From: a virus
IMG/VR virus record: IMGVR_UViG_3300009684_000171
Span: 1 to 24,173 of that record
Reading direction: 5' to 3' (one strand)
Length of the DNA stretch: 24,173 nucleotides
The notes below the pieces were generated by a model, which was given only the letters and a program-made list of their open reading frames with translations, was not told where the DNA came from and ran no database searches. This document shows, in pieces, positions 4,688 to 24,173 of the stretch (position 1 is the stretch's first letter; every line of letters begins with the position of its first letter). Made by a program: the position numbers and the translations under genes.

Positions 4688-4722
4688 AAAAAGTATTAGT
4701 TACAGGTAGTGCTGGCTATTGA
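4684..4722 (+). pseudogene. 5' remnant of a sugar-nucleotide SDR gene
   Basis: An ATG overlapping the preceding stop (ATGA, 4684-4687) opens MKKVLVTGSAGY and then hits TGA at 4720-4722. This is the classic N-terminal beta-alpha dinucleotide-binding start (VTGxAGY) of extended SDR epimerases/dehydratases, cut before the third glycine. The cut coincides with the 3' end of the opposite-strand GIY-YIG endonuclease gene (4716). It is related to, but not identical with, the start of the complete SDR at 5493 ([12 protein letters not shown]). I read it as the stump of a gene interrupted or replaced by the homing endonuclease. Confidence 0.7.
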
Positions 4723-5363
4723 TTTCTTTTTGATTCTAAAGGATAACACATCCATCCTTTATGGTTTGATTGCCTATTGTAGGCCACTTTAATCATATTT
4801 GAATCATGCAGATTATTTTCTTGACAAAATGTTTTTAGATTTTTAACGATAAAAACATCACCATCAGGATTTACTATTTTCCAAGTTTTTGACATATTTT
4901 TGTCAGATCCTATTTCTCGTTTAGTAGCTAAAGATTTTGCTGCCGATTCTGATGTTGCTAAAGGTATTCCATTTTTTCTCTTAGTATCTACACCTTTTTG
5001 AGCACCAATTTTATCTGTTCCTCTTAATTTTTTAGTTATCTGTTGTTTTTTGGCGGCCTCTGTAGTACAGCCTCCTTCGCCAGATTCCGGTTTAAGATTT
5101 GCCCATATTTTTTTACCATTTTGATGTTTAGCATTTATAATATCCCAAAGATTACTATAATACAACCCCCACTCTTTGACTTCTTTTTTAGAGTAGCATT
5201 CTCGAATTATTTCTGTTGTATAATCTCTTCCGTGAATTTTGAGATGCGGGATCCAATATTCTCCAGATCCTGTATACTTATGTGGATCTTCTGATTTAGT
5301 GAATCCCAGATATTTTAAACCTGTTTTATTATGTGTCTTAACATACAACTTGTAAATAGTCAT
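4716..5363 (-). CDS. GIY-YIG homing endonuclease (Seg-like)
   Basis: A 215-residue minus-strand gene. The N-terminal catalytic GIY-YIG motif appears as KLYVK (residues 5-9) and KYLGFT (17-22), followed by the typical YTGSGEYWIPHLKIHG and EIIREC segments. A basic linker rich in Lys, Ser and Ala follows, then a C-terminal DNA-binding module (about residues 165-205) with a predicted helix-turn-helix, LKTFCQENNLHDSNMIKVA, ending in HKGWM. The latter resembles the modular IENR/NUMOD-type recognition domains of intron and free-standing homing endonucleases. Such enzymes cut a target in endonuclease-free relatives so that repair copies the gene across. No group I intron is evident, so it is probably free-standing. 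It starts at ATG 5363 behind AAGGA, in a leader shared with the HNH gene. Confidence 0.92.
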   Translation of the reverse strand: MTIYKLYVKTHNKTGLKYLGFTKSEDPHKYTGSGEYWIPHLKIHGRDYTTEIIRECYSKKEVKEWGLYYSNLWDIINAKHQNGKKIWANLKPESGEGGCTTEAAKKQQITKKLRGTDKIGAQKGVDTKRKNGIPLATSESAAKSLATKREIGSDKNMSKTWKIVNPDGDVFIVKNLKTFCQENNLHDSNMIKVAYNRQSNHKGWMCYPLESKRNQ

Positions 5364-5391
5364 GCTGATAGTTCCTTATAAACTGTTAGAG
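5364..5391 (-). repeat. Homing-endonuclease leader repeat, copy 1
   Basis: These 28 bases, directly upstream of the GIY-YIG start, are identical to 18246-18273 upstream of the HNH gene. On the minus strand the repeat begins CTCTAACAG, contains TTTATAAGGA (a ribosome binding site) and ends in ATCAGC next to the ATG. Just upstream, an imperfect stem can form from GTAGTT and AACTAC arms. Confidence 0.85.
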
Positions 5392-6476: not shown

Positions 6477-6584
6477 CAATTGATCACAATAGCAATTGAC
6501 TATACAATTAGTAACATACTAATTCAGAAGATATAATGCCCGTAAAATTGCATCATATTACTGAAGTACTACTACTACAAATGC

Positions 6585-6613
6585 TTGACAGTAGATAGTA
6601 CTATACATATTAA
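6585..6613 (+). promoter_or_regulatory. Sigma70-like promoter of the LuxR-type gene
   Basis: TTGACA at 6585-6590, a 17-base spacer and TATTAA at 6608-6613, 25 bases before the ATG at 6639, which has an AAGAGG ribosome binding site. This gives the regulator its own transcription start, separate from the SDR gene. Confidence 0.6.
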
Positions 6614-6638
6614 GTAATATAAACAAGAGGCAATTATC

Positions 6639-7334
6639 ATGCATCAATCTGATAATAACAATTTAACTATTCCAAGAGTAATTGCATTAAGATTCAAGAA
6701 AGACAATCAACTTGTCGAAGATATTTTGCAACAGGTAAGGACCAATATATATTATCATATTGATTTTTGTAGTTGTTGGGGGCAGTTTTCTGACACTTTA
6801 ACTCAAGAAACTAATCTAATATTATTTCACTGTAAGATTCTTGATAATCACGTAATAAGTCCTAACGAAATTTATGATCTAATTTCTTCCATGAGTCGAT
6901 TTACTATTGGTAAACAAATCAATATTGCAGCAGTGATAGATAATGATACTACACATGCTAGAATCAAAGAGCTACGTAAATTGGATATACGCGGCATAGT
7001 TCCTAGTAGTGAATTCTGGGGAGCAGAAGTTGGCGTATCAGCAGTGGTGTCTATATTAAGTGGCAATCAGTATTGGCCAAAAGACATCATTGATCAATTA
7101 CCCGGTGCTGTTAAAAAAGTTAAAACAAATACACAAGGTATCCGACTAACTGCTAGACAATTAGAAGTAATGGAACTGGTGTGCAAACGTGGATTGAGTA
7201 ACAAGGGTGTGGCCAAGATGTTAAAGATCTCCGAAAGCACAGTTAAAATTCATGTCAGTGCTGTAATGAAGGCTTATGGAGTTCGCAATAGAACGCAATT
7301 GGCCTTGACTGCATCCTCAAATTTTAAAGTCTAA
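6639..7334 (+). CDS. LuxR/NarL-type transcriptional regulator with degenerate receiver
   Basis: A 231-residue protein. Residues 159-224 form a clear LuxR-type helix-turn-helix: RLTARQLEVMELVCKRGLSN, then IAxxL-like VAKMLKISESTVKIHVSAVM with the recognition helix, and the YGVRNRTQL end. The N-terminal part (about 12-150) has the alternating strand/helix pattern and IRGIVPSSEFWG...SGNQYWP segment of response-regulator receivers. At the end of beta-3 (NLILFHCKI, residues 59-67), however, the phospho-acceptor Asp is not visible. It would therefore act without classical phosphorylation, or be modulated by binding or abundance. It lies directly upstream of two paralogous genes with duplicated leaders, which are the natural candidates for its targets. 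A phage-encoded LuxR-family protein at the border of a structural cluster could act as a late switch; this is inference. Confidence 0.88.
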   Translation: MHQSDNNNLTIPRVIALRFKKDNQLVEDILQQVRTNIYYHIDFCSCWGQFSDTLTQETNLILFHCKILDNHVISPNEIYDLISSMSRFTIGKQINIAAVIDNDTTHARIKELRKLDIRGIVPSSEFWGAEVGVSAVVSILSGNQYWPKDIIDQLPGAVKKVKTNTQGIRLTARQLEVMELVCKRGLSNKGVAKMLKISESTVKIHVSAVMKAYGVRNRTQLALTASSNFKV

Positions 7335-7433
7335 TACTGTTGTTGTGATCGTACTAATGCACAGACTATCTTTCCTGAATAAATTTTAAGTAATAGTGTA
7401 ACACAAATAGAAATGGGTTCTGTTTGCCGTTAC
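7329..7433 (+). promoter_or_regulatory. Duplicated leader element, copy 1, with hairpin
   Basis: About 105 bases that recur, diverged, at 8076-8183. Shared blocks include GTCTAATACT at the 5' end, a TGATGCACAGA-like block (here TAATGCACAGA) and a conserved block TTTTAAGTAATAGTGTAACA. The 23 bases at 7404-7426 fold into a 9-base-pair hairpin that is preserved in the second copy with a compensatory G-C to A-T change. It precedes the 7459 gene and probably lies in its 5' leader. Confidence 0.7.
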
Positions 7434-7458
7434 TAATTTTTACTCGAGGAAAAATAAA

Positions 7459-8019
7459 ATGGCTGAATTATCAACAGGAACCAATGCGTTCTTTTCATTG
7501 TTACAAAACGTACAGGGTGTTAAAGAAAAAGTAGCGGATAGCGTTTTTGAAAACTACAAATTACAAGTTGCTCAAGCAAACGATATTAACAATCGTGCTA
7601 TGCAAGTTGCATTACATGATGCTACGGCATTAGCTGACCTAAAGGCCGCTGCCTCTAAAGGTACATTAGAAACAATGTTGGCTGCTCAACGCACTGATGC
7701 TGCTATTGGTGCAACTGCTGCTGTAACACAACGTGATGTTGCTAGACAAGGTGAGTTCACACGTAATCTAGTAAATGAATTGAACACAATCAACTTGAAT
7801 ACTGCTCTAATCAACACCAATGTTGCATTTGATGGAATGAATAGTCAGTATTCTGATCTAGGTCTTGCTTACGGTGGAGCCGTTGGTGCTTACCAAAGTG
7901 CTAATAGTGTTAGCGCAATAAATGCAACCAAAAGTTCTGTAACTGGTCAACGTTTTGTTAATACTGGTGTATCAACCGGTACTGTACAATCTACCACATC
8001 TACAAGCATTGGCGGTTAA
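7459..8019 (+). CDS. Paralogous helical protein A, 186 aa, likely virion or abundant late protein
   Basis: ATG at 7459 follows GAGGAAAAATAAA. The protein is Ala/Asn/Thr-rich and mostly helical over residues 1-110 (FFSLLQNVQGVKEKVADSVF, then YKLQVAQANDINNRAMQVAL), with a Gly/Ser/Thr-rich C-terminal third. It is clearly paralogous to the gene at 8242 over its whole length, sharing NRAMQVALHDATAL, AAIGATAA and NLNTALINTNVAF. The C-terminus carries VNTGxxxGTxQ, a motif also found at the ends of the 8242 and 9049 products. I recognise no family. Its strong leader, strong terminator and duplication suggest a highly expressed protein such as a capsid decoration or appendage component, but this is inferred from arrangement only. 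Confidence 0.85.
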   Translation: MAELSTGTNAFFSLLQNVQGVKEKVADSVFENYKLQVAQANDINNRAMQVALHDATALADLKAAASKGTLETMLAAQRTDAAIGATAAVTQRDVARQGEFTRNLVNELNTINLNTALINTNVAFDGMNSQYSDLGLAYGGAVGAYQSANSVSAINATKSSVTGQRFVNTGVSTGTVQSTTSTSIGG

Positions 8020-8033
8020 TCCGTTACCAAATT

Positions 8034-8062
8034 AAAAACACTCCTTAGGGGGTGTTTTTTTT
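8034..8062 (+). terminator. Rho-independent terminator after paralog A
   Basis: An A-rich 5' arm running into ACACTCC (8038-8044) pairs with GGGGTGT (8049-8055), loop TTAG, followed by a run of eight T. It lies 15 bases after the 7459 gene's stop and would isolate that gene from the next unit. Confidence 0.9.
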
Positions 8063-8075
8063 GGCCGTAAATTTG

Positions 8076-8183
8076 GTCTAATACTCAAGCACTGATACAA
8101 CTGATGCACAGAATTTTTTTGATTCAAAAATTTTAAGTAATAGTGTAACACAAATAAAAATGGTTTTTATTTGTACAAGTTAC
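8076..8183 (+). promoter_or_regulatory. Duplicated leader element, copy 2, with hairpin
   Basis: Second copy of the 7329-7433 element, directly after the terminator. The hairpin at 8151-8173 has arms CAAATAAAAA and TTTTTATTTG around TGG, a perfect 10-base-pair stem. Relative to copy 1 the stem differs by a paired change (G-C to A-T) and by a G-T wobble becoming A-T, as expected for a conserved structure. It ends 58 bases before the 8242 start. Confidence 0.7.
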
Positions 8184-8241
8184 ACCTAGGGCTTTGCACA
8201 GTGGCAACAGTCCTGGCATTTTTACTTTAAGGAAAAATAAA

Positions 8242-8796
8242 ATGGCTGATATGTTAACAACTGATCCTTTCTTCTCTTTGCTACAAAACGTACAAGATGT
8301 AAAGACCAAGGTTTCTGATTCAATCTTTGAAAACTACAAACTACAAGTCGCACAAACAAACGACATCAACAACCGCGCTATGCAAGTTGCATTGCACGAT
8401 GCAACAGCATTGTCTGACCTAAAGCAATCTGTCGCCGAAGGCACACTACAGACTATGCTTGCTGCTGGTCGTACAGATGCTGCTATCGGTGCTACTGCCG
8501 CTGCAACTCAACGTGCAATCTTTGAACAAGGTGAAATGACTCGTGGTTTAATCAACGGTTTAAACACACAAAACTTGAACACTGCTTTGATCAACACCAA
8601 TGTAGCATTCTCTGGCCTAAATGGTCAATATGCTGGTTTAGGTCTTGCTTATGGTGGCGCAGTTGCTGCTGTACAAAGCGCAAACAGCGTAAATGCTGTT
8701 AATGCTCTAAACAGTGCTATTGCTAGCCAAGGTTTGGTCAACACCGGTACCATGACAGGTACTACACAGACTGCTACTCCAACTAGCATTCGCTAA
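8242..8796 (+). CDS. Paralogous helical protein B, 184 aa
   Basis: I take ATG at 8242 because it follows AAGGAAAAATAAA, matching its paralog; an in-frame ATG at 8194 lies inside the leader and lacks a binding site. The protein aligns end to end with the 7459 product: PFFSLLQNVQDVKTKVSDS, the NDINNRAMQVALHDATAL block, DAAIGATAA, LNTALINTNVAF and YAGLGLAYGGAVAAVQSANS. The C-terminal stretch NSAIASQGLVNTGTMTG followed by QTATPTSI is nearly repeated in the 9049 protein. The copies are strongly diverged at the DNA level, so the duplication is old and both are under selection. Function unknown; a virion-surface or other abundant late role is plausible. Confidence 0.85.
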   Translation: MADMLTTDPFFSLLQNVQDVKTKVSDSIFENYKLQVAQTNDINNRAMQVALHDATALSDLKQSVAEGTLQTMLAAGRTDAAIGATAAATQRAIFEQGEMTRGLINGLNTQNLNTALINTNVAFSGLNGQYAGLGLAYGGAVAAVQSANSVNAVNALNSAIASQGLVNTGTMTGTTQTATPTSIR

Positions 8797-9048: not shown

Positions 9049-9267
9049 ATGTATTCAGGTTATATGTATCCGTTCTACAGAGGTTGGGGCATGGGTCAGC
9101 CAGGCTATGGTGTTGGTTATCCAACATGGGGCTTTGGTGGCTATTCTGGCTACGGTAGTTATGGCGGAATTAATTCTATTGGTAGTGCTATTGCTAATCA
9201 AAGCATAGTCAATACTGGTAGTGTAATTGGACTTACACAAACTGCTACACCAACAGTTATTTGGTAA
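9049..9267 (+). CDS. Chimeric Gly/Tyr-rich protein with shared C-terminal motif, 72 aa
   Basis: ATG at 9049 follows AAGGGGAATAAT. Residues 1-40 are Gly/Tyr/Trp-rich (GQPGYGVGYPTWGFGGYSG), like the 54-residue protein upstream. Residues 41-72 match the last 32 residues of the 8242 protein: NSIGSAIANQSIVNTG, then a short variable piece, then LTQTATPTVIW. The gene therefore looks like a fusion of the two compositions of its neighbours. The shared tail suggests a common binding partner, assembly site or processing signal. The downstream gene starts nine bases after this stop. No family is recognised. Confidence 0.8.
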   Translation: MYSGYMYPFYRGWGMGQPGYGVGYPTWGFGGYSGYGSYGGINSIGSAIANQSIVNTGSVIGLTQTATPTVIW

Positions 9268-9275
9268 CAAATAAA

Positions 9276-9992
9276 ATGTACAAAAAAATATCACACAATA
9301 TTGTTGAAGAGCATTTTGATCATCCGGCAGTACTGCCTGTCGGAATGATTGATAAACCCGTATCAATGTCTATGTTATCTAACGAATTAACACCGTTGCC
9401 TTCTGTGGTAATTAATGAACGTACATTGATTTTTCGTATGGATTCAAGAACTCTATGGACTAGATATGCATTGGGTATGATCAATTATTCAGTTAGTAGT
9501 TTTGGTAATATGCCCAGCACACCAGCTGTGGAAAAGAATCTCAGTAGAAATGCAGCAGGAATAGGAGATTATTTTATTCCTTATTATGGCATAACTGCTG
9601 GCACCAAGGTAGGTAACTTACTAGGTGTACTGTTGTTAAATGGAACGCGAGTGGTGGAAACTATTAAAAACAAGCAAACAGACATTGCAGTATACAAAGG
9701 AATCTGGAGCAGGCAGATTGATGATTTGGCTACATATCTAAACGAGCTAAATCCCAGTCAGTATCCCAGAGTTCTATTGATAGAGATGTTTACTAATCTT
9801 ACTAATTTTTGGACAGAAGATTTCATAGCTAGAGTTGCCAACAACTTTGCTACAGATGCCGTGGCACTAGATAACATAATGAAAGTGGCTGTAAGCGGTA
9901 TACCAAACCATGCCAACAAAGGTTACAGCAGTTTGGCTGATATACTCAGCAGAGGAATAGTTGCACAGTTTCCACTATTATTTTTGGAGTAA
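9276..9992 (+). CDS. Paralogous phage protein (MYKKI family), 238 aa, copy 1
   Basis: I chose ATG 9276 because its product starts MYKKISHNIVEEHFDHP, matching the paralog at 13536 (MYKKITHTIVEEHFDHP); an upstream in-frame TTG at 9261 overlaps the previous gene. Other shared points are FRMDSRT/FRLDART, YYGITAG/YYGTAAG, and a C-terminal part of the form SLADILSRGIVAQFP/GLADVFATGIIRQFP. Between them lie helical segments with Trp and Asn. No membrane helix or enzyme motif is seen. Both copies are followed by a gene for a Cys-containing coiled-coil protein, so the pair looks like a conserved two-gene module placed among fibre genes; I would guess a structural or assembly role. Confidence 0.8.
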   Translation: MYKKISHNIVEEHFDHPAVLPVGMIDKPVSMSMLSNELTPLPSVVINERTLIFRMDSRTLWTRYALGMINYSVSSFGNMPSTPAVEKNLSRNAAGIGDYFIPYYGITAGTKVGNLLGVLLLNGTRVVETIKNKQTDIAVYKGIWSRQIDDLATYLNELNPSQYPRVLLIEMFTNLTNFWTEDFIARVANNFATDAVALDNIMKVAVSGIPNHANKGYSSLADILSRGIVAQFPLLFLE

Positions 9993-13535: not shown

Positions 13536-14222
13536 ATGTACAAAAAAATTACTCATACCATAGTGGAAGAACATTTTGACCACCCCATGGCCGCGGAGAT
13601 CAAGGACCGTATGGAAAATTGCTCACCAACACCACCAGCAATGGCTGTTAACTTTGCTCAGGCAATCAAGTTTAGACTAGATGCTAGAACTTATTTTTCT
13701 GCACTACAGACCAAGGTAAGAAATCTTATCACTGATCTAGTTGAACCCAAAGACGAAGCTACTTCTGCTGTAAAATTAACTGATGTAGTTGATACTATCA
13801 ATAGATTGGGTTCAGTGGCAGCCATCTATTATGGAACTGCTGCTGGCGATCAACTGGCCACTCTGTTAAAAGATTTTGCATTGGCAGCGGCGGCACATGT
13901 TGGGATATTAAAAGCCAACGGTGATGCAACTGCGGCTAAAGCCAAATGTGCAGAAACCATTGCTGCAATTGCCAAATTTCTAAGCACCGCAAATCCTGAA
14001 TTTTGGCCAGCAACCGCAGTTACTGCCATCTTTACTGACTATTCTGATGCATTATTGGCACAGGCCGCTGCATTGATCAAGAAAGATGCCACAGCAGCAG
14101 TTGATGCAGAAAACACACAGCATGATGTTATCATGGGCAACACAATGGGCAAGGTAGGATTAGCTGATGTATTTGCCACTGGAATCATTAGACAATTTCC
14201 TGATCAATTCTCATTTAGATAA
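13536..14222 (+). CDS. Paralogous phage protein (MYKKI family), 228 aa, copy 2
   Basis: ATG at 13536 follows AAAGGAAAAATAAA, the same leader used by the genes at 7459 and 8242. It begins MYKKITHTIVEEHFDHP and matches the 9276 protein at its N-terminus, at FRLDART, at YYGTAAG and at the C-terminal GLADVFATGIIRQFPDQF. The middle is more Ala-rich and helical than in copy 1 (LAAAAHVGILKANGDATAAK). Copy 2 is followed by a small Cys-rich coiled-coil gene just as copy 1 is followed by a coiled-coil/membrane gene. Function is unknown; its position in the fibre cluster suggests virion assembly or structure. Confidence 0.82.
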   Translation: MYKKITHTIVEEHFDHPMAAEIKDRMENCSPTPPAMAVNFAQAIKFRLDARTYFSALQTKVRNLITDLVEPKDEATSAVKLTDVVDTINRLGSVAAIYYGTAAGDQLATLLKDFALAAAAHVGILKANGDATAAKAKCAETIAAIAKFLSTANPEFWPATAVTAIFTDYSDALLAQAAALIKKDATAAVDAENTQHDVIMGNTMGKVGLADVFATGIIRQFPDQFSFR

Positions 14223-16660: not shown

Positions 16661-17683
16661 ATGAAACGAATTGGTTTTGCATGTAAATGGTTGAATGATC
16701 CCAGCGAATGTGGTGGCATGAAAGTAAATGCTGTGGATCGAGATCTAAACGGACGCAGCACTACTATGCGCTGGCTGCGTGAACATGCCGCCGAAGCCGA
16801 ACAGCGTCAGTGGGATATTATGAATCACAACGCAACCGCAGCACTCAACATGGTTGAGCGAGTAGGAAGTTTGGCTCCAAATCTGCGTATGGTGAGGTTA
16901 GGTAGTGAAATGCTGCAAGGATATACACACGAGGATTGGATCCCATTTTGGAAACAGGCTGATGTGCAAGCACATTGCGAAAAAATCTTTGCTCCTGTAG
17001 GCGAGGCTGCACGTAGACTGGATGTTAGACTAAGTTTCCATCCCGGACAATTCTGTGTGTTAGCAAGTGCTAATCCTGGAATTGTGGAGCGTAGTATTTT
17101 AGAATTTGAATATCACGCTGACATGGCTCGTTGGATGGGATATGGAAAGTCTTTTCAAGATTTTAAAATCAATGTACACATCAGTGGTCAACGCGGACCT
17201 GAAGGTTTTAGAGAAACCTACAGCAAACTCAGCAACGAAGCAAGAAATTGCATCACAATTGAAAATGAAGAAAACTCTTGGGGATTAGATGATTGTCTTA
17301 CTATTAGCGACTTGGTGCCTATCGTTCTGGATGTGCATCACCATTGGATCAAAACAGGAGATTACATCTCACCCTTGGACAGCCGTGTTGATCGCGTGGT
17401 TCAGTCTTGGCGTGGTGTCCGGCCTACTATGCACTATAGTGTCAGCCGTGAAGATTACCTCGTGGATCATGACACTGATGTAATGCCAGATTACAAATTG
17501 TTGTTAGAAACCGGATATAAAAAACAGAAGATGAGAGCTCATTCAGATTTTATGTGGAATAGTAGTGTTAACGAATGGGCATTAAGTTTTCTCAACACAC
17601 ACGATATTATGGTAGAAGCTAAAGGTAAAAATTTAGCCAGTTTTGCTTTGGCAGAACAAGCCCAACAATTAGGACTGTTGTAG
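16661..17683 (+). CDS. uvsE: UV damage endonuclease (UvsE/UvdE)
   Basis: A 340-residue TIM-barrel endonuclease of the UvdE family, which nicks DNA 5' to pyrimidine dimers and other lesions and starts alternative excision repair. Visible motifs in order: IGFACKWLN at the N-terminus, LSFHPGQF (His127), NVHISG (His173), ITIENEE (Glu201/203), LDVHHHW (Asp224 to His228), TMHYS (His258), AHSDFMW, and VEAKGKNLA near the end. These supply the His/Glu/Asp metal ligands of the family. Phages of photic waters often carry it to repair their own genomes. It has its own strong promoter. The opposite-strand HNH gene overlaps its 3' end by 15 bases, but the C-terminus looks complete. Confidence 0.94.
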   Translation: MKRIGFACKWLNDPSECGGMKVNAVDRDLNGRSTTMRWLREHAAEAEQRQWDIMNHNATAALNMVERVGSLAPNLRMVRLGSEMLQGYTHEDWIPFWKQADVQAHCEKIFAPVGEAARRLDVRLSFHPGQFCVLASANPGIVERSILEFEYHADMARWMGYGKSFQDFKINVHISGQRGPEGFRETYSKLSNEARNCITIENEENSWGLDDCLTISDLVPIVLDVHHHWIKTGDYISPLDSRVDRVVQSWRGVRPTMHYSVSREDYLVDHDTDVMPDYKLLLETGYKKQKMRAHSDFMWNSSVNEWALSFLNTHDIMVEAKGKNLASFALAEQAQQLGLL

Positions 17684-18244
17684 CATCCATCCTTTTACAG
17701 ATTTATATCTGCCTTTTAATAATTCACATATATTACCTTGATTTAGATCGTACGTTTTTATTAGATCGTATCTAGTAGCACTGAGAGTTATTCCTGTTTT
17801 TTTGTTATACCAGTTATATATTGTATGATCAAACATCCAATGCTTCTGTCCGTGTTGATCTATTTTTTGGAAATTATGTTTGCCCTCTTTTACCAATTTA
17901 TTAGTACCGGCACGAAACCCTTCTACTGCCTGAGATTTAATCGTGGCATAAACTCTGGATGTTAACGGTGTATTATATCTTTGGTGATTTTTATGACTAG
18001 ACCTCATCATAACAAGTGCCATACACATTTTCATCTTATGTTGGCCTTCTGTCATTTTAGTTAATAGCCAGTGGCATATAAAATGTTCTCTAGCGGTAAG
18101 AGCAACTATATTAAATTTTTTATTAGATCCGCCCAGACTTTTTGGAATAATATGATGACGCTCAGTATAGCCTTCTATATTTCTATTCTGGGCAGAAGAA
18201 ATGATAGAATTATACCATCGGGTATACTTGTTTTGTAAATACAT
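17669..18244 (-). CDS. HNH homing endonuclease
   Basis: A minus-strand gene of 191 residues from ATG 18244, behind AAGGA in a leader shared with the GIY-YIG gene. A longer in-frame start at 18304 would translate the conserved leader itself and is less likely. The HNH motif is RHHIIPKSLGGSNKKFNIVA (first His pair and the Asn), then LTAREHFICHWLL with the final His. The C-terminal part (about 140-188) has the same kind of DNA-recognition module as the GIY-YIG enzyme: a strand, a helix-turn-helix (LIKTYDLNQGNICELLKGRY) and an SVKGWM end. It would spread by cutting endonuclease-free relatives, probably near uvsE. Its 3' end overlaps uvsE by 15 bases without disrupting it. Confidence 0.92.
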   Translation of the reverse strand: MYLQNKYTRWYNSIISSAQNRNIEGYTERHHIIPKSLGGSNKKFNIVALTAREHFICHWLLTKMTEGQHKMKMCMALVMMRSSHKNHQRYNTPLTSRVYATIKSQAVEGFRAGTNKLVKEGKHNFQKIDQHGQKHWMFDHTIYNWYNKKTGITLSATRYDLIKTYDLNQGNICELLKGRYKSVKGWMLQQS

Positions 18245-18245
18245 A

Positions 18246-18273
18246 GCTGATAGTTCCTTATAAACTGTTAGAG
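18246..18273 (-). repeat. Homing-endonuclease leader repeat, copy 2
   Basis: Identical over 28 bases to 5364-5391 and placed identically, with the HNH ATG one base further away. On the minus strand it contains TTTATAAGGA and ends ATCAGC. Upstream, a small stem (GTCC...GGAC) can form, comparable in place with the stem in copy 1, and both have CGCG about 20 bases before the repeat. Confidence 0.85.
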
Positions 18274-18321
18274 CTGATGGTCCCTGCCAGGACGCGATCG
18301 GCACTTTTATTTAGTTATAAG

Positions 18322-20125: not shown

Positions 20126-22156
20126 ATGACCATACCACAATGGATCACACCTGCAGGTACACTGGCCACTGTAACAGGTGAAGTTGCTGTTGCTACTTCT
20201 GTATCTGCCACGGGCAACAACACAGTCTATAGTATCATTGCTGGCGCCTTGCCCAATGGTATAACTCTTACCAGTGGAGGCACGATTGCCGGAACCACAG
20301 TGCCCGATGTAAAAACTATAGATAGTGTATTTGTGGTGCGGGCAGCAGACACGCAGACTGGTATCAATACTGATAGAACATTTCAGATAATTGTACTTGG
20401 TTCAGCAGCGCCTGTGTGGCCACCAATACCAGGATTTATCAAAGAAGGAACTACTGTACAAGGATATTATTTAGAAAACGAGTGGATCAAGATTGAATTG
20501 CTGGCACATGCACCAGCAGTTTCACCTGCAGATTATCCTATTACATATTCCGTAGCACCAGGAAGTCACGGATTGCCTGAAGGCATAACATTAGTAGATG
20601 GAACATTATCTGGAATATTTGCCACAAATGTCAATGATGGCAAAGTTAAATCTTATAATTTTACAATTTTAGCCAGCAATAGTGTTGCAAGTTCCACACA
20701 GACATTTAATATTTCTGTAGTAAGCCCAAATGTTTTTAGAGCAGATTCTACAGTTTTAATATTAGGGTCAACTTCGAGCTATTTAGATTTAACTGTACCG
20801 GGTACAGTTAATTCAAGTCCATTACAGAATTTGCAATTCCTAAATGGCACTGATTTGGGCACTGTTAATTCCGACGACAATCAATCTATACCAGTAACTG
20901 TTTATGATCCAGAACCGTTATTGGGACCTGTAACTTACCAATTGATTCCTGGTATGGGTATACTTAATAATCTACCACCTGGATTATTGCTAGATACCAA
21001 TACTGGCTATATCACAGGATTTATTCCATATCAAGCTTCATATTCAAATACATACAATTTAACTGTAAAGGCTACCAAGTCTTCTAGTACGCAGGATTTT
21101 ATCGCTGCTGTTAATACATTTACTCTCACTGTAAAAGGACAGGTGGATAGCAATTTAGAATGGGTTAGTAGCAATAATTTAGGCAGCATAGAAGTTGGAA
21201 CAATTAGTGAAATTTCAGTAGTGGCTCGTCAGATTAATAGTGATTATACTGTAAAATACCGACTGGCACAGGGACAGTTACCCCGGGGTCTAGAAATAAA
21301 TCGTGCTGGCAACATACAAGGTAGAGCCAATACAGGCACAGCTGGCACCTATACGTTTGATGTTGAAGCTAGCGACGTCTATAATTTTGGTGCAGTAAGC
21401 CAAACATTCAATCTCATAGTGACACAAACTACTGCTACTACATATACGGAAATATATGTCCAGCCCATGATGTCAAGAGCAGCCAAGTCAGCATATCAAA
21501 ATTTCATCAACAATGAATTTACTTTTGCTGCTGATTTAATTTATAGATACTATGATCCTAACTTTGGTATACAGCACACGCCACGAATGATTGTAGAATT
21601 TGGTATTGAACAATTAAATCTACGATACTATGTGCCAGCACTAACTGAAAACTTTTATCGTAGAAAATTTAATTTTGGCGATGTTAAAGTTGCAGTGGCT
21701 AAAGATATTCACGGTAAGATAATATACGAAGTAGTTTATGTGGATATTATTGATACATTGTCCAATTCTTCAGGTGCAAGTGTTGATGCTGCAATAACTG
21801 CCAATGGTAAAATCTACTATCCTGCTAGTATTGCCAATATGCGAAAGAGATTGCAATCATTGGTCAATGCTGATAATAAGATTATCAGTGTAGACGAATA
21901 CCAAAATCCTAAATTTATGCGTACTGCACAGGCATCAAGTTATAAACCCCCGGGTTATCTACATATATTACCAATATGTTATGCACTTCCGGGACAGGGT
22001 AATAGGATAGTCAGCAAAATTCGACTCAGTGGGTTTGATTTCAAGCAAATCAACTTTGAAGTAGATAGGTTAATTGTACAGCATCTTGAGAACAATATGC
22101 TAGATAAATATCTGATGCTAGGTAAAGACTCGATAACAGACAGACCGGGACAGTAG
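20126..22156 (+). CDS. Large tail/appendage protein with putative Ig-like repeats, 676 aa
   Basis: Four Ig-like (He-PIG-type) repeats can be followed by their LPxG-[IL]-x-[LI] strands: LPNGITLTSGGTIAGT (42-57), LPEGITLVDGTLSGIF (150-165), LPPGLLLDTNTGYITG (283-298) and LPRGLEINRAGNIQGR (385-400). Each is followed by a strand with a V.A.D or A.S pattern. Residues about 440-676 are a different, mixed domain (PMMSRAAKSAYQNFINNEFT, then FGIEQLNLRYYVPALTENFY and ILPICYALPGQGNRIVSKIR) that I do not recognise but believe is conserved in large phages. Ig-like repeats in phage proteins usually decorate tails or capsids and stick to carbohydrates. The gene lies between two fibre genes and follows the collar fibre by one base, so it is probably part of the same appendage. 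Confidence 0.85.
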   Translation: MTIPQWITPAGTLATVTGEVAVATSVSATGNNTVYSIIAGALPNGITLTSGGTIAGTTVPDVKTIDSVFVVRAADTQTGINTDRTFQIIVLGSAAPVWPPIPGFIKEGTTVQGYYLENEWIKIELLAHAPAVSPADYPITYSVAPGSHGLPEGITLVDGTLSGIFATNVNDGKVKSYNFTILASNSVASSTQTFNISVVSPNVFRADSTVLILGSTSSYLDLTVPGTVNSSPLQNLQFLNGTDLGTVNSDDNQSIPVTVYDPEPLLGPVTYQLIPGMGILNNLPPGLLLDTNTGYITGFIPYQASYSNTYNLTVKATKSSSTQDFIAAVNTFTLTVKGQVDSNLEWVSSNNLGSIEVGTISEISVVARQINSDYTVKYRLAQGQLPRGLEINRAGNIQGRANTGTAGTYTFDVEASDVYNFGAVSQTFNLIVTQTTATTYTEIYVQPMMSRAAKSAYQNFINNEFTFAADLIYRYYDPNFGIQHTPRMIVEFGIEQLNLRYYVPALTENFYRRKFNFGDVKVAVAKDIHGKIIYEVVYVDIIDTLSNSSGASVDAAITANGKIYYPASIANMRKRLQSLVNADNKIISVDEYQNPKFMRTAQASSYKPPGYLHILPICYALPGQGNRIVSKIRLSGFDFKQINFEVDRLIVQHLENNMLDKYLMLGKDSITDRPGQ

Positions 22157-22170
22157 TCAGTTGTGTATTC

Positions 22171-22210
22171 GTGCTAGCAAAAATCAGTAAAATAATAAAT
22201 ACACTAGCAC
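22171..22210 (+). promoter_or_regulatory. Late promoter-like octamer inside an inverted repeat
   Basis: AATAAATA at 22194-22201 lies 30 bases before the 22232 start. GTGCTAG (22171-22177) and CTAGCAC (22204-22210) form a perfect 7-base-pair inverted repeat around it. The hairpin may also help end transcripts of the preceding gene, though no T-run follows. Confidence 0.5.
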
Positions 22211-22231
22211 TACAAATATAGGTACCTAAAA

Positions 22232-24173
22232 ATGGCCGCAAGACAAGACTTAACCGTACTACCAGCATTAACTAAACCTACCCAAGGCGAAACACAGTTC
22301 ATTGTCAAAGATTCAGGCATTGAACAAATATTAACTGTAGCTGCTGCCAAGAGTCTATTAGGCACCAAAGGTGATCAGGGCGCACAAGGAAGAACTGGAT
22401 TCACTGGAAGTTTAGGATATACAGGTAGTGTAGGTTTTACAGGTAGTCGCGGTGTTGGATTTACCGGCTCAAAAGGCGCCGATGGTAATTCAATTAGTAT
22501 CAAGGGATCAGTAGACACATCTGCTAGTTTACCCACTACGGGTAAAACATTAGGTGATGGTTATATTGCAACTGATACTGGTCATCTATGGATATATACA
22601 AATACCAATGCAGATGGTAGTGTACAGGGATTTATTGACATTGGTAGCATACTAGGACCAATAGGTCCTATTGGTTATACCGGTAGTATCGGTTATACCG
22701 GTAGTATTGGTTATACCGGATCAGTGGGGTATACTGGATCAGTGGGGTATACTGGATCAGTAGGGTATACTGGATCAGTAGGGTATACTGGATCAGTAGG
22801 GTATACTGGATCAGTGGGGTATACTGGATCTAGCGGAATAAAAGGTTTTACAGGCAGTGTGGGTTATACAGGCAGTGTGGGTTATACAGGATCAGCCGGC
22901 ACCGGTCTAAATATTATCGGAACTTTGAGCACATCTGCAGATTTGCAAGCAATTTCTAACAGTGTAATGGGCGATGGTTACATTGTTGCCGCTAATGGAC
23001 ATTTATGGGTATATACTAGTTCAGTTGCTGGTGGTTCAGTCAATGGATTTACCGATGTAGGAAATATTGTAGGTCCAAAAGGGTATACTGGCAGTACTGG
23101 TTATACTGGATCAAGTGGCTCAATTGGATATTATGGTAGCGTTGGGTACACTGGCTCAATTGGATATTATGGTAGCGTTGGGTACACTGGATCACGTGGC
23201 CCAATCGGATATTATGGTAGTGTTGGTTATACCGGCTCTATGGGTAGCTTTACAGGAACCACCGACCAAGCAGTTAATATTACAAACACCACATCAGCCA
23301 CATCAACTACAACTGGTGCATTAATTGTTGCCGGCGGGGCTGGTATCGGTGAAGCATTATACGTTGGTGGAAATATATACTCCAACAATTCGCAAGTAAT
23401 AACTACTGATACACTAGGATTGTTAACTAGTGGAAATTCAGATAAAGTATTTATAAATGCAGTTACAGCAGGTACTACTTATTATGTAGGTTTAACTGAA
23501 TTAACTGGCAATTATTCTCCAATTGATAGTGATTCCACACTGGCCTATGATACTACAGATAATAAACTAAGTTCTACTCGATTGGCAGTATCCGGAACAA
23601 CTTCTGCTACCAGTACAATTACAGGTGCATTAACTGTTGCTGGCGGTGTTGGTGTTGGTGGTGATTTGTATGTAGGTGGTAATATTACTGCCAATAAGTT
23701 AACAATCCAATACACTACGATTACTACAACTCTAGTCACTACTGATGATATTATTAGTACTTCAAATACTACAGCGTCTACATCAACTACTACTGGTGCA
23801 TTGACTGTTGCCGGCGGCGTTGGTATCGGTGGAGCATTGTATGTTGATGGAGATATTTATAGAAATGGCATTGCCATTGGTTATGGATATCAAGGCGCTC
23901 AAGGATTCCAAGGATATCAAGGAGCCCAAGGACAACAAGGCTATCAAGGCGCAACTGGATCACAAGGATTCCAAGGATATCAAGGAGCCCAAGGACGACA
24001 AGGCTATCAAGGTAATCAAGGATATCAGGGCAATCAGGGCAATCAAGGATTCCAAGGTGCGCAAGGCGCACAGGGTAATCAAGGCTACCAAGGCAATCAA
24101 GGATATCAGGGCGCACAAGGTGCTCAGGGCAATCAGGGATTCCAAGGTAATCAAGGATATCAGGGCAATCAAG
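22232..24173 (+). CDS. Giant collagen-like tail fibre, 3' end outside window
   Basis: ATG at 22232 opens a frame with no stop through the window end (647 codons visible). Order of parts: an N-terminal module ([20 protein letters not shown], then [10 protein letters not shown]); a first collagen-like stretch of [11 protein letters not shown] triplets; a globular insert ending [14 protein letters not shown]; nine GYTGSx repeats (22673-22834); a second copy of the insert with [25 protein letters not shown] repeats; three [15 protein letters not shown] repeats; and finally Gly-X-Gln repeats ([10 protein letters not shown]) to the end. Such proteins form thin trimeric fibres on phage tails or heads. 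There is almost no Pro, so stability must come from Thr, Ser, Gln and charged or aromatic pairs. A late-type octamer lies upstream. Confidence 0.92.
22673..22834 (+). repeat. 18-base tandem repeat, nine units (GYTGSx)
   Basis: Nine in-frame 18-base units. The five from 22727 to 22816 are nearly identical, differing only at one synonymous third base (GTG or GTA). The region is prone to unit gain or loss and to assembly collapse. Confidence 0.92.
23117..23233 (+). repeat. 36-base repeat in the collagen-like gene
   Basis: Two identical 36-base units (23117-23152, 23153-23188) coding [12 protein letters not shown], then a diverged third unit (23189-23233) with an extra GSRGP piece. Confidence 0.85.
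23879..24173 (+). repeat. Gly-X-Gln collagen-like repeat tract
   Basis: Nine-base based repeats of GGNxxxCAA type coding GYQ, GAQ, GFQ and GNQ triplets, with longer near-identical blocks such as the one starting at 23906 and again at 23966. The tract continues past the window end. The complementary strand is accidentally open because of the repeat structure. Confidence 0.9.

Follow-up and report, generated by a model that had tools for sequence, protein, structure and literature searches.

The window, by which we mean the whole stretch of 24,173 nucleotides that was analysed, contains a gene for a predicted regulator followed by two paralogous genes, A and B, that code for rod-like proteins, each of the latter preceded by a leader. 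The features of this region, all on the plus strand, are as follows.

6559-6585, plus strand: operator candidate of the regulator gene, with box 1 TACTGAAGTA at 6559-6568 and box 2 TACAAATGCT at 6576-6585 (composite match 36.7, spacing 35/17)
6610-6616, plus strand: late-type core TTAAGTA of the regulator promoter (predicted +1 A6622, 17-nt leader)
6639-7334, plus strand: gene for a NarL/LuxR-type regulator of 231 aa (GerE helix-turn-helix, pseudo-receiver N-terminal domain)
7335-7361, plus strand: operator candidate of leader 1, with box 1 at 7335-7344 and box 2 at 7352-7361 (composite match 41.2, spacing 35/17)
7384-7392, plus strand: late-type core TTTTAAGTA of leader 1 (predicted +1 G7398)
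7398-7433, plus strand: predicted 5'-terminal stem-loop of leader 1 (MFE -12.4 kcal/mol, z -4.0; covariation)
7459-8019, plus strand: rod-protein gene A, coding for 186 aa (its family spans 40 viral contigs; paralogue of the gene at 8242)
8036-8062, plus strand: terminator-like hairpin and T run between gene A and leader 2 (AAAACACTCC TTAG GGGGTGTTTT, T run; read directly from the sequence)
8082-8108, plus strand: operator candidate of leader 2, with box 1 at 8082-8091 and box 2 at 8099-8108 (composite match 44.3, spacing 35/17)
8131-8139, plus strand: late-type core TTTTAAGTA of leader 2 (predicted +1 G8145)
8145-8183, plus strand: predicted 5'-terminal stem-loop of leader 2, with inner hairpin 8151-8173 (fold of 8145-8244: MFE -25.8, z -3.4)
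8186-8216, plus strand: second stem-loop, from the fold, in leader 2 and not in leader 1
8242-8796, plus strand: rod-protein gene B, 184 aa (predicted single helix of about 150 residues)

The leaders, 7329-7433 and 8076-8183, align with 82 matching bases over 105/108, against 53% identity at the third codon positions of genes A and B, and are thus better conserved than these positions, as an earlier note on this DNA had claimed. The same note described a duplicated leader with a covarying hairpin, and this is real: the 20-base block TTTTAAGTAATAGTGTAACA occurs exactly twice, with 0.03 occurrences expected by chance when up to 3 mismatches are allowed, and the inner hairpins at 7404-7426 and 8151-8173 are each a perfect 9-bp stem, differing by the compensatory change G-C to A-T and by a change of U-G to U-A. 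Calling the paralogues strongly diverged was an overstatement, since the two proteins are 72% identical. The hairpins are as described, but the element was framed too narrowly on either side: the outer stem GUAAC/GUUAC lengthens them to 7398-7433 and 8145-8183, and paired boxes lie upstream, box 1 of leader 1 beginning directly past the stop codon of the regulator. Read from its sequence, each leader is tripartite, with two dyad boxes, a late-promoter-like core, and a stem-loop at the predicted first transcribed base. Second hairpins like the one at 8186-8216 are present in many long leaders of relatives, and the positional profile of fold z dips at +30, to a mean of -1.8. The terminator-like element at 8036-8062 is not among the listings of the consensus scan, and no Rfam family scores above its gathering score in the window.

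The rod proteins have relatives in 40 IMG/VR contigs, a set that a profile search returned unchanged; no relative was found among cultured phages or in the bacterial genomes of the GTDB collection, and a structure search against a viral library gave no match. The AlphaFold model of the gene B product is a helix over residues 9-161 (mean pLDDT 76, above 90 over approximately residues 31-110, pTM 0.32), and such a long helix is compatible with a structural role. The larger relative contigs are T4-like myoviruses, with Gp23 in two of them and gp55 in three (G002, G008, G009), and their gp32 is closest to that of jumbo phages such as Phosso, PA5oct, GAP32 and RaK2. The window, itself only a fragment, does not contain gp55.

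The regulator has a GerE domain (PF00196, E 3e-14; nearest profile NarL 1a04), and its AlphaFold model (pLDDT 84) has LiaR 5hev as top Foldseek match (E 4e-9). Its phosphoacceptor aspartate is not conserved: over 15 regulator sequences, only M1 and G119 are invariant outside the helix-turn-helix. Cultured phages yielded only partial, NarP-like matches to it. In two relatives (L007:2862-4010 and L020:3693-4844) the pseudo-receiver domain is duplicated.

The boxes have the form RTACT-NN-AGYAY and come two per leader, 17-18 bp apart. In nearly all leaders that go with a regulator gene, the distance from box 2 down to the TAA of the core is 35 bp, which places the centre of this box at -41.5 from the predicted +1 in T4 numbering. 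A composite matrix was trained on the leaders of the rod-protein genes alone, the regulator promoter being held out. Applied to the window, it gives three strong sites, with scores 44.3, 41.2 and 36.7; the next best scores 12.7, and the reversed control 6.6. At other loci, too, the regulator promoters carry these boxes and this core. The regulator leader of the window has no hairpin, the fold of 6622-6641 being unstructured. One lineage's regulator promoters (L016:4060-4123, L032:3370-3430, L031:2050-2108) have their TAAGTA core flanked by an extra inverted repeat, such as GTTCTCC...GGAGAAC, which may be a second site of autoregulation.

The cores at the leaders are TTTAAGTA or TTTAACTA, and TTAAATAA in two loci. 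The first matches the T4 late promoter TATAAATA at 6/8 positions; the window leaders thus lack an exact TATAAATA. The canonical form is found at the same place in relatives without the regulator gene, and only there, these relatives amounting to only two lineages. In most of six large relatives, ATAAATA ranks first or close to first among the sense-strand heptamers that lie upstream of genes; TTTAAGTA is rare, and we rejected it as a general late promoter. The likeness to T4 late promoters, which depend on gp55, extends to an 8-base core and to the lack of any detected -35 element, and may extend to a purine start 6 nt downstream, at the predicted +1, and to gp55, which is present in larger relatives. 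The leaders differ from their T4 counterparts in the core TTTAAGTA itself and in the added paired-box element, upstream at a fixed distance. Transcript starts are predicted by T4 numbering, 6 nt past the core; at the base so predicted, 34/35 distinct leaders have a purine.

The hairpin begins at this predicted start. We call a leader flush when a stem-loop of -5 kcal/mol or better leaves at most 2 unpaired nucleotides at the 5' end. By this measure 31/35 distinct leaders are flush, compared to 5.7 +/- 1.9 (maximum 9) in shuffles, although many leaders are interrelated and the counts overstate independence. The predicted +1 base is itself paired in 25/35 leaders at -5 kcal/mol or better, and the profile of fold z by position has a sharp minimum at +1. 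Genes kept with the pairing lost, the case that would have spoken against a functional RNA, were looked for and are rare.

Since stems of unequal length misalign, RNAalifold found no consensus structure in the full 22-sequence alignment of the main lineage, a problem solved by anchoring on the loop. In this anchored alignment 180/198 stem cells are paired, versus 149 (maximum 168) when the 3' arms are permuted and re-registered; in the non-redundant set, 113/126 are paired versus 97 (maximum 109) with permuted arms. An 11-sequence alignment agrees, with 90.5% paired and 0/500 shuffles. G-U makes up 15% of the stem pairs, and many arm columns are conserved no better than chance. Arms that drift while pairing is kept, G-U included, indicate that the hairpin acts as RNA and not as an operator, and the fixed position at the predicted transcript start also supports the functional RNA of the earlier note. 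At the canonical-core loci L005, L041 and L042, hairpins of unrelated sequence occupy the same position: structure and position are kept, sequence is not. A search of 725 kb with the covariance model R1 matched only at these leaders, so the element is not a dispersed one.

Boxes and core could be separated from the hairpin with about 30 further contigs, previously unused, obtained by a regulator-profile search. Where these have boxes and core, the hairpin is flush at 10/12 target promoters and at 0/13 regulator promoters; some of the new contigs have no clear composite site. The first set of regulator promoters had given 0/19, and the pooled values, whose counts are not fully independent, are 41/47 for target versus 0/32 for regulator promoters. 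The near-identical L179 and L180 have a different neighbour gene, without hairpin. Boxes and core thus appear to be signals for transcription that both kinds of promoter share, the hairpin being a property of the target message, though the very short regulator leaders might by themselves preclude a hairpin.

A scan of all ATAAATA sites brought up two further genes as candidates. In the contigs of these phages, the leaders that follow ATAAATA are flush at 5/5 gp32 and 6/6 hsp20 loci (11/11, of which 5 had prompted the idea, leaving six fresh loci), with hairpin sequences that differ. Among general ATAAATA sites only 12/100 are flush, and the hairpin was rejected as a general property of late promoters. 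T4 late leaders are without the flush hairpin of the leaders described here (1/20 flush). Among the gp32 leaders of nine cultured jumbo phages, those of Sinorhizobium phage Phosso, Cronobacter phage GAP32 and Xanthomonas phage XbC2 are flush, and that of BF is near-flush. The gp32 genes of these phages thus have a structured leader, as does T4 gene 32, whose autoregulatory pseudoknot is among the post-transcriptional controls of T4 (PMC3014915); unlike that pseudoknot, the structure here stands flush at the position where a late-type promoter is predicted to start transcription.

The reading that we favour, with a probability of roughly 60%, is that a regulator of the NarL type, which also activates its own gene, drives noncanonical late promoters, and that the hairpin is a 5'-end stabiliser of the ompA type. 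The regulator would bind the two tandem dyad boxes, centred near -41.5 and -58.5, and activate, both at its own gene and in front of genes A and B, the noncanonical core TTTAAGTA that stands in for ATAAATA. Activation would work via a phage-modified RNA polymerase, presumably at late times. Its sign is inferred from the position of the boxes and from the analogy with NarL, which at E. coli ogt activates from tandem dyads, with sites at -44.5 and -77.5 (PMC7419079); the regulator may repress instead. With regulators of the NarL/LiaR/RcsB type it shares the GerE domain, the receiver-like fold and two upstream dyad sites, the near one at about -42. It differs from them in being phage-encoded, in a receiver-like domain without the invariant aspartate, in a compact TACT-NN-AGTA dyad box, and in being apparently dedicated to its own gene and the neighbours.

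Transcription of the rod-protein genes would then start about 6 nt past the core, so that the first base of the message would already be paired. With almost no single-stranded 5' end, 5'-end-dependent decay would be hindered; a pathway of the RppH and RNase E type is assumed here. The outcome would be a long-lived message for a presumably abundant protein, and we consider that the hairpin probably shields the rod-protein messages from decay. Messages of proteins required in large amounts that carry a flush stem at +1 are consistent with a stabiliser that impedes RppH, as a 5' hairpin does in E. coli, where it stabilises bla mRNA (PMC3997798). The stabilisers of E. coli ompA and papA (PMC3997798) consist of a stem-loop at the extreme 5' end, with few or no unpaired nucleotides, a free stem sequence and an open ribosome-binding site. 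The present leaders have the same traits: a stem-loop flush with the predicted start, independence from stem sequence, and an unoccluded ribosome-binding site. They differ from ompA and papA in lying on phage late-type transcripts and in recurring at several phage genes. Of the functions put forward in the earlier note, a stability element fits best, with a longer half-life as a prediction, and a translation enhancer receives no specific support. The loop AAUNG, invariant in one lineage, counts against a pure end-block, which would not require it.

Possibly, though this is doubtful, the core works together with the regulator as a -10 element of the ordinary host type and is not a late-sigma promoter; the stabilising hairpin could stand in that case as well. 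TAAGTA does differ from the genome-wide ATAAATA, and ordinary holoenzyme activated in the class II manner would agree with a box 2 at -41.5. However, the consensus scan has no sigma-70 promoter pair at the leader cores, and relatives without the regulator have the canonical TATAAATA at the same place. A reading that we consider less probable still is that the NarL-type pseudo-response regulator would have become dedicated to activating the T4-type late polymerase in class II fashion, so that this polymerase could use the otherwise poor TAAGTA core at the regulator gene and its neighbours, and that the loop of the flush hairpin on target messages would be read by a phage protein. If true, a late sigma without the usual region 4 would be served by an upstream DNA-bound activator, unlike the clamp-dependent activation of T4.

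The AAUNG loop also bears on the conjecture that the hairpin is an RNA operator through which a specific protein, the rod protein or another phage protein, controls translation, as do the MS2 coat protein and T4 gp43. The loop is invariant in the 22 main-lineage leaders while stems drift, but these leaders were partly picked by eye, a choice that favours a common loop and makes its conservation only suggestive. Moreover, loops differ in L005, L034 and L039-L043, and the hairpins at gp32 and hsp20 are unrelated. In the window, where the leaders run 64 and 100 nt to their genes, both 5' stem-loops end upstream of the ribosome-binding site: 7398-7433 stops ahead of the purine-rich site of gene A at 7445-7452, without the overlap seen for MS2 and gp43, and in leader 2 the second stem-loop sits between the 5' hairpin and the site. 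We judge an RNA operator unlikely.

As the part of these phage late-type transcripts that would be synthesised first, the hairpin might act on the elongating polymerase by pausing or antitermination, in the manner of HK022 put RNA, and not on decay. A polymerase-binding RNA is expected to conserve the sequence of its stem, and here stem sequences are not conserved; furthermore, the terminator-like element at 8036-8062, after gene A and ahead of leader 2, makes the units look short and separately terminated. This leaves an action on polymerase with little probability. Least probable is the proposal of the earlier note that the inverted repeat itself is the DNA operator of the LuxR-type regulator: the regulator gene does adjoin the leader and NarL-type proteins do bind dyads (PMC7419079), but the arms vary freely with pairing kept, G-U included, the regulator's own promoters have boxes and core with a flush hairpin in 0/32, and relatives without the regulator retain a hairpin. 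What stands of the proposal is a candidate site in the leaders, placed by sequence match further upstream, at 7335-7361 and 8082-8108.

If 5'-end stabilisation under a NarL-type activator is correct, its component parts are of known kinds and their combination is new; our literature search on 5'-terminal hairpins of phage late messages found nothing specific. T4-like and jumbo phages may set ompA-type 5' end protection at late-type promoters, those of gp32, Hsp20 and the rod protein, unlike the model phage T4, and a bacterial-type regulator apparently acts on a late-type promoter. The spread over large phages offers a testable regulatory module across uncultured phages, with contigs up to 400 kb, and part of it is open to test in the three cultured phages with a flush gp32 leader.

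Other genes of the window deserve a brief mention. The rod protein of gene B and a small Gly/Tyr-rich protein (9049-9267) have a common C-terminal tail NTG..G.TQTATPT.I, with similar tails in relatives. Two otherwise diverged proteins (9273-9992 and 13536-14222) have a common N-terminal MYKKI(S/T)HxIVEEHFDHP, resembling a targeting or processing signal. A gene for a papain-family cysteine protease (PF00112, 14450-15115) lies within a phage structural region, and a long reading frame at 22100-24173, still open at the window end, codes for collagen-like Gly-X-Y repeats. On the minus strand, two mutually unrelated predicted homing endonuclease genes, GIY-YIG-like at 4716-5363 and HNH-like at 17669-18304, start with an identical 28 bp (5364-5391 and 18246-18273) that includes the ribosome-binding site.
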